Positions 24,721 to 31,346 of a stretch of 64,000 nucleotides of DNA are shown here, one piece after another; position 1 is the first letter of the stretch, and every line of letters starts with the position of its first letter. The translations under genes were made by a program, and so were the position numbers. The stretch spans positions 1 through 64,000 of the forward strand of contig LFSC01000036.1 of the NCBI GenBank assembly GCA_001512505.1. The letters are read 5' to 3'. The notes below the pieces were generated by a model, which made no database searches, was not told the origin of the DNA, and worked only from the letters and a program-made list of their open reading frames with translations. The stretch comes from Clostridiaceae bacterium DTU079. GTDB lineage: Bacteria > Bacillota > Clostridia > Acetivibrionales > Acetivibrionaceae.

Positions 24721-26775
24721 ATGATAAAGAAAACAGGAAAGATATTGATAGCGGCATTTATTGTTAGCATGTTGACATTGCTGTTGCCGGAAAAAGGACT
24801 TGCAGACTATCCGATTTTTTCTCAGCGTTTTACTGCGGACCCTACTGCAGTAGTTTACAACGGCAGGCTTTATGTCTATTGTTCTCATGATTCGGATGCT
24901 ACACCCGGTCAGTCATCCTACAATATTCCGGATATAACTTGTATATCCACGGATGATTTGAAAAACTGGACCGACCATGGAGAAGTATTTAATGCAAAAA
25001 GAGATTCCAGTTGGGCTGGAGTTTCCTGGGCGCCGTCAATTGTTTATCGCAACAATAAGTTTTATTTATATTACGGTAATGGGGGAAACGGTATAGGAGT
25101 GGCAGTGAGTGACAGCCCCACCGGACCCTTCAAAGATCCTCTTAGAGGTGCGTTGGTATCCTGGAACACTCCTGGAGTACAACCTGCACAAAATATGTGG
25201 CTGTTTGACCCCGGTGTTTTTGTTGATGATGACGGACAGGCTTATATGTACTTTGGTGGAAACGGACAAAACAATATCAGAGTTATTAAGTTGGGAAATG
25301 ATATGATAAGTACGGTAGGTTCAGCTATGTCGATGTCGGCTCCAAGGTTTTTCGAGGCATCGTTTATGCATAAGTATAAAGGAAAATATTATTTTACCTA
25401 TGCCAGTGATTTCTCTCAAGGTGCCTCCAAGATTGAATATATGATGAGCGACAAGCCTACCACAGGTTTTCAATATAAAGGGGTATTATTGCCGCAGCCA
25501 CCCGACAACTATAGTAACAATAATCATCATACTGTCGTTGAGTATATGGGCAATTGGTATGTTGTGTATCACAACAGGACTGTGGCAAAACAACGTGGAC
25601 TTGACCCGGTATATCAGAGAAATGTTTGTATTGATCAGATGTTTTATAACTCCGACGGTACCATAAAGCAGGTTGTTCCAACGGTAGATGGTGTGAAACA
25701 GCTCAAATATGTAAATCCTTACACCAAAAATTTAGCCGTAACCATTCATAAGGAATCCGGTATTGAGACTGAAGAATGCAGTGAAGGCGGACGTAATGTG
25801 TCATTTATTGAAAATGGAGATTGGATCCAGGTTAAGGGTGTTGATTTCGGAAGCTCAGGTGCGACCAGTTTTGAGGCCAGAGTAGCCAGCAATACTAATG
25901 GCGGAAATATTGAAATAAGATTGGACGGTCCTACAGGAAAACTTGTTGGAACTTGTAAAGTAGACGGAACCGGAGGATGGCAGAACTGGACTACCAAAAC
26001 CTGTACAATTAGCGGAGCAACCGGTATTCATGACGTGTTCTTTAGGTTTACAGGCGGAAGCGGGTATTTGTTGAATTTCAGCTGGTGGAAATTCAATACC
26101 GATGGAACATCGACCCCTACCGATCCGGTAGCAACGCCGACGCCTACATCAGTACCGTTGCCTTCACCGGTACCTGTGGTCCCAAGAAGTGCTTTTTCAA
26201 AAATAGAGTTTGAAGAATTTAATGACATTAAATCATCTACGATGCAGAAAATAGGTACCGCAGGCGGTGGAAGCGGTATTGGATATATTGAAAACGGCGA
26301 TTATTTGGTATATAAAGATATTGACTTCGGAACAGGAGCAAACACTTTTAAAGCATTGGTTGCTACTACCGGTACTCCTAATATCCAGTTGAGACTAAAC
26401 AGCCCGACCGGAACCCTTATAGGCACATTACCGGTGCAGGCGACTGGCGGCTTTAATGCGTATGAAGAGCAAAGCTGCAGCATTAACAATGTTACGGGAA
26501 AACAGGATTTATACGTTGTATTTTCAGGTGCTGTAAATATTGACTGGTTTACATTTGGTGGAAGCAGTACAGGTAAAAAAGGTGATGTGAATGAGGACGG
26601 AGAGGTTGATTCATTAGATATTAGCGTATTAAAGAGGTATTTGCTCAGAAAAACATCTCTTTCGGAGCAGGGTCTATACAATGCAGATACTGATGGAGAC
26701 GGAGAAGTAAACTCGTTGGATCTTTCGATCCTAAAAAGATATATATTGAGAAAAATACCTTCTTTTCCGGTATAA
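24721..26775 (+). CDS. Cellulosomal GH43 enzyme, GH43-CBM6-CBM6-dockerin I
   Basis: The 684-residue exported enzyme is likely an alpha-L-arabinofuranosidase or beta-xylosidase acting on arabinoxylan. After a signal peptide (1-28) comes the five-bladed GH43 domain (about 30-335). The catalytic triad is visible: D40 ([10 protein letters not shown], base), D163 (WLFDPGVF, pKa modulator) and E212 (FFEASFMHK, acid). Two CBM6-type modules follow (about 345-460 and 490-615), joined by a Pro/Thr linker. A dockerin with [15 protein letters not shown] and [15 protein letters not shown] ends it. Immediately downstream are sigI and rsgI, whose sensor domain fits the same substrate. Layout resembles A. 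thermocellus Cthe_1271 as I recall it. Confidence 0.92.
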
Positions 26776-26931
26776 TTATTCCGATATATTAATTATATAA
26801 ATATACAACCCAAATAGAAGAATATTGTCGCATAAATAAAACTAATAGGGAATTATTAAACAATATATTTTGGGCTTATATATCGGAATCGATTATGGTT
26901 TACGGAATATTATTGATGAGGGAAGAGGAAT

Positions 26932-27669
26932 ATGCTATTTATTTCTACTATCGTAGATTATACGAATGAAACGGCAACCCGCATTGTTGAGAAAATCAAA
27001 GAGGGGGATAAGCACCTTAAGGAAAAGTTTATAAAAGACTATATTCCGTTTATATTAAATATTATTTCAAGCTTCTATTTCTCAAAGACTGTAGATTTAA
27101 AAAGCAGTGACGAATATAGCGTAGGTCTGATGGCATTTAACGAAGCCATCGAGAAATTTGACATTAAGAGGAGTAGAAGCTTCCTCAAATTTGCAGAAAT
27201 GGTGATAAAAAAGAGAATGATAGATTATTTTAGAAAAACATCTTCTATAGGAAGAAAGGAAATTCCTTTTTCGTATTTTAGCAATGACAGTGAAGTTGAA
27301 TTTGAGAAGAAAATAAATATGGCTGAACTTGACCAGGAATCAGGCAGCTATGAATTTATCTGCGAAATTAAGGATTTTTCGAAACAGCTGGAAAGTTATG
27401 GATTGAATATAAATAATTTGCCCGACTATATGCCCAAGCATAAGGACTCAAGGCAGATGTGTATAGATATAGCAAAAAAGATAATTGAAAATAAGAATAT
27501 TTTAAATAAATTAAAAACGAAAAAGTATATACAGATGAAAGAACTTTCGAAAATTATTGATGTCCATCCGAGGACTGTTGAAAGAAACAGAGCATTTATA
27601 ATTTGCTTATGCATATTGTTTGATAATGATTATGCAAATTTCAAAGCTTACTTAAACAAAATGTTTTAA
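26932..27669 (+). CDS. sigI: RNA polymerase sigma factor SigI
   Basis: This 245-residue alternative sigma factor of the SigI family redirects RNA polymerase to polysaccharide-degradation genes. The region-2-like part (about 20-105) includes LSSDEYSVGLMAFNEAIEKFD-type residues and the FLKFAEMVIKKRMIDYFRK stretch. The C-terminal SigI-specific DNA-binding domain (about 135-240) includes KELSKIIDVHPRTVERNRAFI. GGGAAGAGG precedes the ATG. It lies 156 bases after the GH43 gene and 98 before rsgI. In A. thermocellus each SigI is held inactive by its RsgI until the matching sugar is sensed outside. The gene most resembles SigI5, by context. Confidence 0.93.
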   Translation: MLFISTIVDYTNETATRIVEKIKEGDKHLKEKFIKDYIPFILNIISSFYFSKTVDLKSSDEYSVGLMAFNEAIEKFDIKRSRSFLKFAEMVIKKRMIDYFRKTSSIGRKEIPFSYFSNDSEVEFEKKINMAELDQESGSYEFICEIKDFSKQLESYGLNINNLPDYMPKHKDSRQMCIDIAKKIIENKNILNKLKTKKYIQMKELSKIIDVHPRTVERNRAFIICLCILFDNDYANFKAYLNKMF

Positions 27670-29273: not shown

Positions 29274-29456
29274 AATTGCAAAAAATTAATCAATTTGTCT
29301 CAATTGCATCTTAAGGTATATATGAGTACATCTATCGTATTAATAATCTGTTAAGCAATACAAGAGGCAGGGCGGTACAATTTATTTTTAATTATGTTAA
29401 GGCACAACATGAAAGTAAATTTTTAGATATAATTAATTATTATAGGAGGGTATTAT

Positions 29457-31346
29457 ATGTACAAGATAAAAAGGATGTTAATTGTAACTCTTACTTTATC
29501 ATTTGTTTTGACTCAAATGTTTTGCTTTTCAATGACCACAAATGCAGCTGAAACGGCTACAATAAATTTGTCATCGCAAAAGCAAGTAATCCGTGGATTC
29601 GGAGGAATGAACCATCCGGTTTGGATTAACGATTTAACGGCAGAGCAGAGAGAAAAAGCTTTTGGTAATGGAGAGGGACAGTTGGGTCTTACTATTTTAA
29701 GAATCCATGTGGACGAAAATCGAAACAACTGGTCTAAAGAATTGGCAACAGCAAAAAAGGCGATTGAAAAAGGAGCAATAGTATTCGCATCTCCTTGGAA
29801 TCCGCCGAGTGATATGATTGAATATTTTACCCGTAACGGTCAACCGAACCAAAAAAGACTCAGGTACGATAAATATGCTGCGTATGCCCAGTATCTTAAC
29901 GAGTTTGTTACATACATGAAAAATAACGGTGTGGATTTATATGCTATTTCTGTTCAAAATGAACCTGACTATGCCCATGAGTGGACATGGTGGACTCCGC
30001 AGGAAATGCTTCGCTTTATGAAGGAAAATGCCGGATCGATAAATTGTAGAGTAATGGCACCGGAATCATTCCAATATCTTAAAAATATGTCCGACCCTAT
30101 TTTAAACGACCCGCAGGCACTTGCCAATATGGATATACTTGGTGCCCATTTTTACGGAACAACTGTCAATAATATGCCATATCCTCTTTTTCAGCAGAAG
30201 GGAGCAGGAAAAGATTTGTGGATGACCGAGGTTTACGTTCCGAACAGTGACAGTAATTCAGCCGATCGCTGGCCGGAAGCTTTGGAAGTTGCACATAATA
30301 TTCATAATGCTTTGGTAGAGGGTAATTTTCAGGCATATGTATGGTGGTATATACGCAGAAGTTACGGTCTTTTAAAAGAGGACGGTAACATAAGCAAGAG
30401 GGGTTATATGATGGCACATTACTCAAAATTTGTCCGCCCCGGATATGTAAGGGTTGATGCAACAAAGAATCCAACCTACAATGTGTATGTATCCGCTTAC
30501 AAGAAGAATAACAGTGTTGTGGCTGTAGTTATAAATAAAAGTACCGAAGCCAAGACGATAAATATATCCGTTCCGGGAGGTAATATTCGAAAATGGGAAA
30601 GGTACGTTACCTCAAGTTCGAAAAATCTTAAGAAAGAATCGGATATAAATGCTTCATCAGATACATTCCAAGTAACTTTGGAACCTCAAAGTGTTACAAC
30701 TTTCGTCGGAGGATCAGACGGCTCCGATATACCCGACGTACCTAATGAGAGAAGTGCTTTTTCAAAGATTGAAGTAGAGGAATATAACGATGTTAAGTCT
30801 TCTACTATTCAGGTAGTAGGTGCTGCTACCGGCAAAGGATTGGGATATATCAGTAACGGTGACTATACCGTTTATAAAAACATTGATTTTAAAAACGGTG
30901 CATCTTCCTTTACCGCTCTTGTTACAACAACTGCTGATACTTCCATTGAACTGCGAATAGACAGTCCGACCGGTACTCTAATAGGCACATTACCGGTGAA
31001 GGCGACCGGAGGCTTTAATGCATATGAAGAACAAAGCTGCAACATTAGCAAAGTTACAGGAAAACATGACTTGTACCTGGTATTTAAAGGTGCTGTAAAT
31101 ATTGACTGGTTTATATTCGGTGAAGGCAGTATAGGACCAGTAGGCAAAAAAGGTGATGTTAACGGTGACGGGGAGATTGACTCTTTGGATATATCAGTAT
31201 TGAAGAGACATATACTTAGAAAAGCAACTCTTACGGGAGAGAATCTTGCCAATGCCGATACTAACGGAGACGGTTCAGTCGACTCTAACGACCTTACATT
31301 GCTTAAGAGATATGTACTTCGGAAGATAAATTCTTTCCCGGTATAG
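29457..31346 (+). CDS. Cellulosomal GH30 glucuronoxylanase, GH30-CBM6-dockerin I
   Basis: The 629-residue exported xylanase has a signal peptide (1-30) and a GH30 catalytic domain (about 35-420) with acid/base E169 (VQNEPDY) and nucleophile E258 (WMTEVYV). The [13 protein letters not shown] segment matches the loop with which subfamily-8 enzymes grip the glucuronic acid side chain, predicting cleavage of glucuronoxylan. A CBM6 module (about 430-560) and a dockerin ([30 protein letters not shown]) follow. The CBM6 is very similar to the second CBM6 of the GH43 enzyme (shared [15 protein letters not shown]-type stretches), so module exchange or duplication is likely. TAGGAGGG precedes the ATG. 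Confidence 0.93.

Follow-up and report, generated by a model that had tools for sequence, protein, structure and literature searches.

Does an anti-sigma factor carrying an arabinofuranose-type carbohydrate-binding module (CBM42) control the cellulosomal enzymes encoded beside it, and through which promoter? The question is raised by a four-gene array in Clostridiaceae bacterium DTU079 (assembly GCA_001512505.1, contig LFSC01000036.1, positions 1–64,000 of the forward strand; this whole stretch of 64,000 nucleotides is called the window), in which genes for a GH43 enzyme, a sigma factor (sigI5), its anti-sigma factor (rsgI5) and a GH30 enzyme follow one another. The array is the orthologue of the A. 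thermocellus locus consisting of GH43-2xCBM6-dockerin (Cthe_1271), sigI5 (Cthe_1272; PMC3990059) and rsgI5 (Cthe_1273) (PMC4711584), with a GH30-CBM6-dockerin gene added downstream. We consider it likely that SigI5 and RsgI5 form an arabinoxylan-sensing switch accompanied by two adjacent cellulosomal xylan enzymes. The locus itself being already known in A. thermocellus, what is new is a conserved candidate SigI5 promoter and a predicted regulon, both derived by comparing 17 loci. The four genes, adjacent and co-directional as the first-pass annotation had stated, are intact open reading frames, all on the + strand between 24721 and 31346:

24721–26775, + strand: GH43-CBM6-CBM6-dockerin, arabinofuranosidase (Pfam; PDB 5a8c/5a8d)
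26932–27669, + strand: sigI5, sigma-I factor of 245 amino acids (aa) (Sigma70_r2; PDB matches to SigI1/SigI6; aligned DNA-contact residues)
27768–29273, + strand: rsgI5, anti-sigma factor (RsgI_N, aa 3–41; RsgI_M, aa 90–230; N97-P98 autocleavage site; Pro/Thr linker; CBM42, aa 367–496)
29457–31346, + strand: GH30-CBM6-dockerin, predicted glucuronoxylanase, CtXyn30A orthologue (Pfam; Xyn30A structures)

The GH43 protein contains Glyco_hydro_43 (5e-46), two CBM_6 stretches and Dockerin_1 (2e-19) in Pfam, and its catalytic domain matches PDB 5a8c/5a8d at E 8e-203. In the GH30 protein, Pfam detects Glyco_hydro_30C, a weak Glyco_hydro_30, CBM_6 and Dockerin_1, the assignment being secured by matches to the A. 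thermocellus Xyn30A structures at 1e-241. The sigI5 product has a Sigma70_r2 domain (1e-7) and near full-length PDB matches to SigI1/SigI6 (4e-44 and 2e-40); all the aligned DNA-contact residues of SigI6 (R98, D101, R104 and H171) are kept in it as R, D, R and H. In a tree, the SigI5 sequences form one clade apart from SigI3/SigI4 with support of 100/100.

RsgI5, encoded just downstream of sigI5, comprises RsgI_N (6e-10), RsgI_M (1e-28) and AbfB, that is, CBM42 (3e-45). The sensor domain, earlier called CBM42-like, is thus a true CBM42; among solved structures it is closest to PDB 9fnk, whose deposited name is 'Anti-sigma-I factor RsgI5', and the domains found bear out the description of the two genes as an RsgI/SigI sensor pair with an arabinofuranose-type module. 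Genome G003 holds a CBM42 sequence identical to that of 9fnk and is therefore of the A. thermocellus type, the window coming from a relative. A predicted Asn-Pro autocleavage site, VDIN97-P98SLE, has the same context in 17/17 orthologues, and a hydrophobic stretch read by eye between RsgI_N and RsgI_M, LLGVACFLFVIICFL, is a putative transmembrane segment. Alignment of the CBM42 reveals that the pocket His and Asp are retained in both the beta and gamma arabinose pockets, whose residues are known from AtAbf43C (PMC12493170). In both pockets of the window protein, Phe takes the place of the pocket Tyr. For the beta pocket this holds in 17/17 RsgI5s and for the gamma pocket in most of them, whereas the two CBM42s from enzymes included in the comparison differ. 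Arabinoxylan and arabinan are ligands of CBM42s in A. thermocellus enzymes (PMC12493170), and a discussion statement in PMC6116742 assigns arabinoxylan to the RsgI CBM42.

In the predicted mechanism, the outer CBM42 of RsgI5 would bind arabinofuranosyl side chains, as in arabinoxylan and arabinan, arabinoxylan being the presumed natural signal. By analogy to other RsgIs of A. thermocellus, which follow a release pathway of autocleavage, RseP and ClpXP (PMC12203970), RsgI_M would then cleave itself at Asn-Pro, RseP would cut the transmembrane helix, and ClpXP would degrade the cytoplasmic fragment and so free SigI5; A. thermocellus RsgI5 has SVA in place of XAA as the ClpXP-recognised motif (PMC12203970). 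The freed SigI5 would transcribe genes having CCCAAC-(2 nucleotides)-AAA as the −35 and CGTA as the −10 element, namely the adjacent GH43, a distant GH2-GH43-beta-helix-GH5-CE1-GH43 cluster and a CBM22-GH10 xylanase. Read-through from the GH43 promoter into sigI5-rsgI5-GH30 may furnish positive feedback, and rsgI5 would in addition have a CGAA-type promoter of its own, served by a different SigI. The promoter elements of the window are as follows:

24568–24601, + strand: predicted SigI5 promoter of GH43, CCCAACTCAAA-N14-CGTAcatgT (strict motif)
26804–26837, + strand: weak candidate SigI promoter of sigI5, TACAACCCAAA-N14-CGCAtaaaT (this genome only)
27678–27711, + strand: separate putative CGAA-type sigma-I promoter of rsgI5, ATGGACGAAAA-N14-CGAAataaT (scan; kept in five genomes)
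29310–29344, + strand: apparently broken SigI5-type promoter before GH30, with CGTAttaaT kept and the −35 element altered (CATCTTAAG) and about 6 nucleotides further away

At 17/17 sigI5 loci, a relaxed scan finds the sigma-I-type motif CC(C/G)AAYnnAAA-N13/14-CG(T/A)AnnnnT or a close variant before sigI5 and/or the neighbouring enzyme. The strict motif occurs 16 times in 13 of the 17 loci versus a mean of 0.025 in dinucleotide shuffles, a comparison that is partly circular because the motif was derived from the very loci counted. The GH43 promoter is aligned and kept in the A. thermocellus-, A. mesophilus- and A. straminisolvens-type loci, and in most of the distant species the motif stands before sigI5 itself. 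For A. thermocellus, predicted sigma-I promoters have been listed for GH43 (Table 2), rsgI5 and GH30 (Cthe_3012, located elsewhere in that genome), the promoter of sigI5 being one that could not be predicted (PMC4711584). Within Acetivibrio, we likewise found no conserved sigI5 promoter, the candidate at 26804 not being conserved in the four nearest relatives. The motif data support control of GH43 by SigI5, and we infer that SigI5 is the factor reading the motif.

Genome-wide counts, obtained by pattern searches with the reversed pattern as a control, extend the motif beyond the locus. The window's own genome contains four strict hits (control, 0), which precede the GH43 of the window, the GH2 heading a six-gene CBM6-dockerin cluster (in the order GH2, GH43, beta-helix/GH141-like, GH5, CE1 esterase and GH43), a CBM22-GH10 gene and, as a CCGAAC variant, a coiled-coil secreted protein beside sigI8. 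The GH2-cluster promoter is kept in five Acetivibrio genomes; in other sigI5-bearing genomes, the motif stands outside the locus before GH43, GH10, GH5 and CBM42-GH43 genes, plus sites not associated with carbohydrate-active enzymes (CAZymes). The 16 genomes of the order outside the sigI5-bearing set gave 6 motif hits versus 24 reversed-pattern hits, indicating that the motif is only at background there. Separately, a CCGAACAAAAAA...CGAA motif precedes secreted proteins in five genomes (L073, L100, L103, L112 and L118), the one in the window's genome being the coiled-coil protein beside sigI8, and is a possible SigI8 target. A second SigI5-like gene (G017:C28:20913-21900; L145, L107) lies directly upstream of a GH43 orthologue bearing the SigI5-type motif.

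Seventeen loci in 16 genomes, spread over two families, retain the sigI5-rsgI5(CBM42) pair, a distribution that excludes chance. Most of the genes beside it encode dockerin hemicellulases or related products of the cellulosome: GH43 (window, G001–G005 and G031), GH30 (window, G001, G002 and G008), GH10 (G002, G006, G008, G010, G012 and G040), GH127 and a GH43 with GH43_C2 (G031), GH59 and CBM6-dockerin proteins (G011), and GDSL esterases (G007 and G009).

The pairing of the sigma factors with their promoters was also compared residue by residue. In the structure of SigI6, R97 contacts base −12, and the helix-turn-helix reads the −35 specificity region (PMC10575876). Among the SigI paralogues with a predicted own promoter, chosen by an unvalidated rule, the combinations of residue 97 and base −12 are R-A (22), S-T (3), H-C (3), K-C (1) and one weak R-T. 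The Acetivibrio SigI5s have K or S at position 97 together with CGTA (CGCA once), and the more distant SigI5s have R97 with CGAA, the SigI5 of G006 being an exception (R97 with CGTA). The third −35 base (C or G) tracks SigI5 residues 201 (I/F) and 222 (A or charged); a strong claim of coevolution for this base is weakened, since the SigI5 tree needs only one change, which counts as a single event. We speculate, with slightly less than even confidence, that SigI5 has a promoter code of its own, CC(C/G)AAC-A-tract with CGTA or CGAA, that has changed together with the protein sequence, residue 97 setting base −12 across the SigI paralogues (R-A, K/S-T and H-C) and residues 201/222 setting the third −35 base, and that the arabinoxylan cluster, which an IS21 insertion separates from its promoter in the A. 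thermocellus-type genome, has SigI5 as its master switch. If true, SigI regulons would be readable from sequence alone, and the residue 97/base −12 pattern would be a simple rule for assigning promoters to the numerous SigI paralogues, which would help in understanding the composition of cellulosomes on grass biomass and in tuning it. As to the insertion, an IS21-family element in G003 (L137:11627-13908) splits the GH2 heading the arabinoxylan cluster and leaves codons 1–110 beside the SigI5-type promoter; this split may explain the very low reads for Cthe_2195–2197 in PMC3990059.

Several points weigh against SigI5 as the reader of the motif or against arabinoxylan as the signal, in addition to the circularity of the shuffle comparison, the G006 exception and the single change at the third −35 base. 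A. thermocellus SigI5 activated 0/40 predicted promoters in B. subtilis (PMC6056542), in a library that contained the GH43 and rsgI5 promoters (PMC6056542, PMC4711584), and 5′-rapid amplification of cDNA ends gave no sigI5 start site (PMC6056542). In G003, G004 and G005 (A. thermocellus-, A. straminisolvens- and A. mesophilus-type genomes), the gap from GH43 to sigI5 contains a terminator-like hairpin, and bulk arabinoxylan had little effect on the A. thermocellus cellulosome yield (PMC6116742). The negative result in B. subtilis must either be explained, for example by poor function of SigI5 in that host, or be accepted as a refutation.

That result also favours an alternative that we regard as unlikely, in which the motif is read by another SigI (SigI3, SigI4, SigI6 or SigI8), SigI5 is inactive, weak or directed to other targets, and the adjacency reflects a shared substrate only. 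The sigI8 promoter of the window's own genome, CCGAATC-AAA/CGAA, resembles the CCG form of the motif, a further point against SigI5, and the rsgI5 promoter of A. thermocellus is weakly activated by SigI6 (PMC4711584). However, a motif belonging to another SigI is difficult to reconcile with its background frequency outside the sigI5-bearing genomes and with its position before sigI5 in most of the distant species. Genes for SigI factors are commonly self-regulated. Moreover, the ten SigI6-activated promoters given in PMC4711584 do not include that of GH43, and in the pattern observed CGTA pairs with SigIs lacking R97, which in Acetivibrio are SigI3 (needing CCCC), SigI4 (CGCA) and SigI5.

Control of GH43 by SigI5 being preferred for these reasons, it may be asked how far the control extends. 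In the first-pass annotation the circuit was closed and local, the pair responding to arabinoxylan by controlling just the two flanking enzymes; this appears quite improbable, the annotation's interpretation as a whole being partly supported. In favour of the closed loop, GH43 has the SigI5-type promoter, GH30 also has it in the nearest relative (a clean ACCAACTTAAA-N14-CGTAtaagT in the alignment), and two hairpins bracket the array:

24512–24543, + strand: terminator-like hairpin at the left edge of the unit, 3′ of the upstream serpin gene (14-bp stem then a T run; −20.9 kcal/mol, z −5.7)
31407–31459, + strand: strong terminator-like hairpin at the right edge of the unit (−23.5 kcal/mol, z −8.5)

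The part concerning GH43 stands, its conserved sigma-I promoter at 24568 fitting the cross-species motif. The part concerning GH30 does not, since its promoter in the window is degraded: an own SigI5 promoter of GH30 was rejected on the alignment, which shows the changed −35 element and the longer spacing. GH30 could be reached only by read-through or from another promoter; hairpin scans of the window found no terminator-like hairpin in the gaps between the four genes, so that one RNA starting at the GH43 promoter could extend across GH30. Furthermore, GH30 is located elsewhere with a different promoter in the A. thermocellus-, A. mesophilus- and A. straminisolvens-type genomes, and the motif before the six-gene arabinoxylan cluster and GH10 elsewhere in the genome speaks against a local, self-contained control. 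Nor does GH30 seem to fit the role of an arabinoxylan cutter: CtXyn30A failed to hydrolyse wheat arabinoxylan and depends on methylglucuronic acid (MeGlcA) side groups (PMC8347883), suggesting that its orthologue in the window, by analogy a glucuronoxylanase, acts as a complement to GH43 on glucurono(arabino)xylan and not as an enzyme for plain arabinoxylan. In genomes where GH30 and sigI5 are not neighbours (L052, L055 and L053), GH30 is preceded by a CCGAAC/CGAA or CGTACAT/CGAA promoter and not by one of the CGTA type, as if the type tracked location.

Least probable is mere co-inheritance of CAZyme genes, with GH43 and GH30 under the housekeeping sigma factor and the promoter-like matches incidental: dockerin enzymes are abundant in cellulosome loci and sigma-70-like matches are present, though at the shuffled rate (31 versus 25.5 ± 5.2), yet the promoter is common to neighbours that differ by lineage (GH43, GH10, GH30 and GH127), and the motif, far more frequent than in shuffles, turns up again before arabinoxylan genes at unlinked sites.

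The array is worth comparing with related systems. It shares with Cthe_1271–1273 of A. thermocellus three genes in identical order, the orthologous CBM42 sensor (PDB 9fnk), the conserved GH43 promoter and a sigI5-rsgI5 gap near 97 nucleotides holding an rsgI5 promoter, whereas GH30-CBM6-dockerin adjoins in the window but lies elsewhere (Cthe_3012) in A. thermocellus, and the window lacks the hairpin between GH43 and sigI5 and has the weak candidate sigI5 promoter. SigI6-RsgI6 (GH10 sensor) and SigI3-RsgI3 (PA14 sensor) of A. thermocellus have the same sigma-I/RsgI architecture, promoters with an A-tract −35 and CGWA −10 element, and the role of adjusting cellulosomal enzymes to a polysaccharide. 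However, they differ from SigI5-RsgI5 in the sensor domain and −35 specificity region, and have experimentally defined regulons (xylanases and pectin enzymes, respectively), whereas SigI5 has none. The B. subtilis SigI-RsgI has the same sigma-I/RsgI_N/RsgI_M core but, according to the literature, a heat and cell-envelope role and no carbohydrate-binding sensor. Among SigI1–6 of A. thermocellus, SigI5 is the sole carbohydrate-linked SigI without an experimentally found target promoter; with the conserved candidate promoter and a short list of targets, its regulon can be tested directly.

Around the array, a serpin gene without dockerin (23257-24492) lies upstream of GH43, as it does in G003, G004 and G005, and the GH43 5′ leader contains a perfect 2 × 34-bp tandem duplication (24608–24675, + strand) that is not in relatives. 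A tRNA was the sole match in the Rfam scan of the window at gathering thresholds. A giant open reading frame of >4044 aa (51868-64000), with Big_2 domains near its C-terminal part, runs past the window end, and is followed beyond it by another sigI gene (C29:66131).

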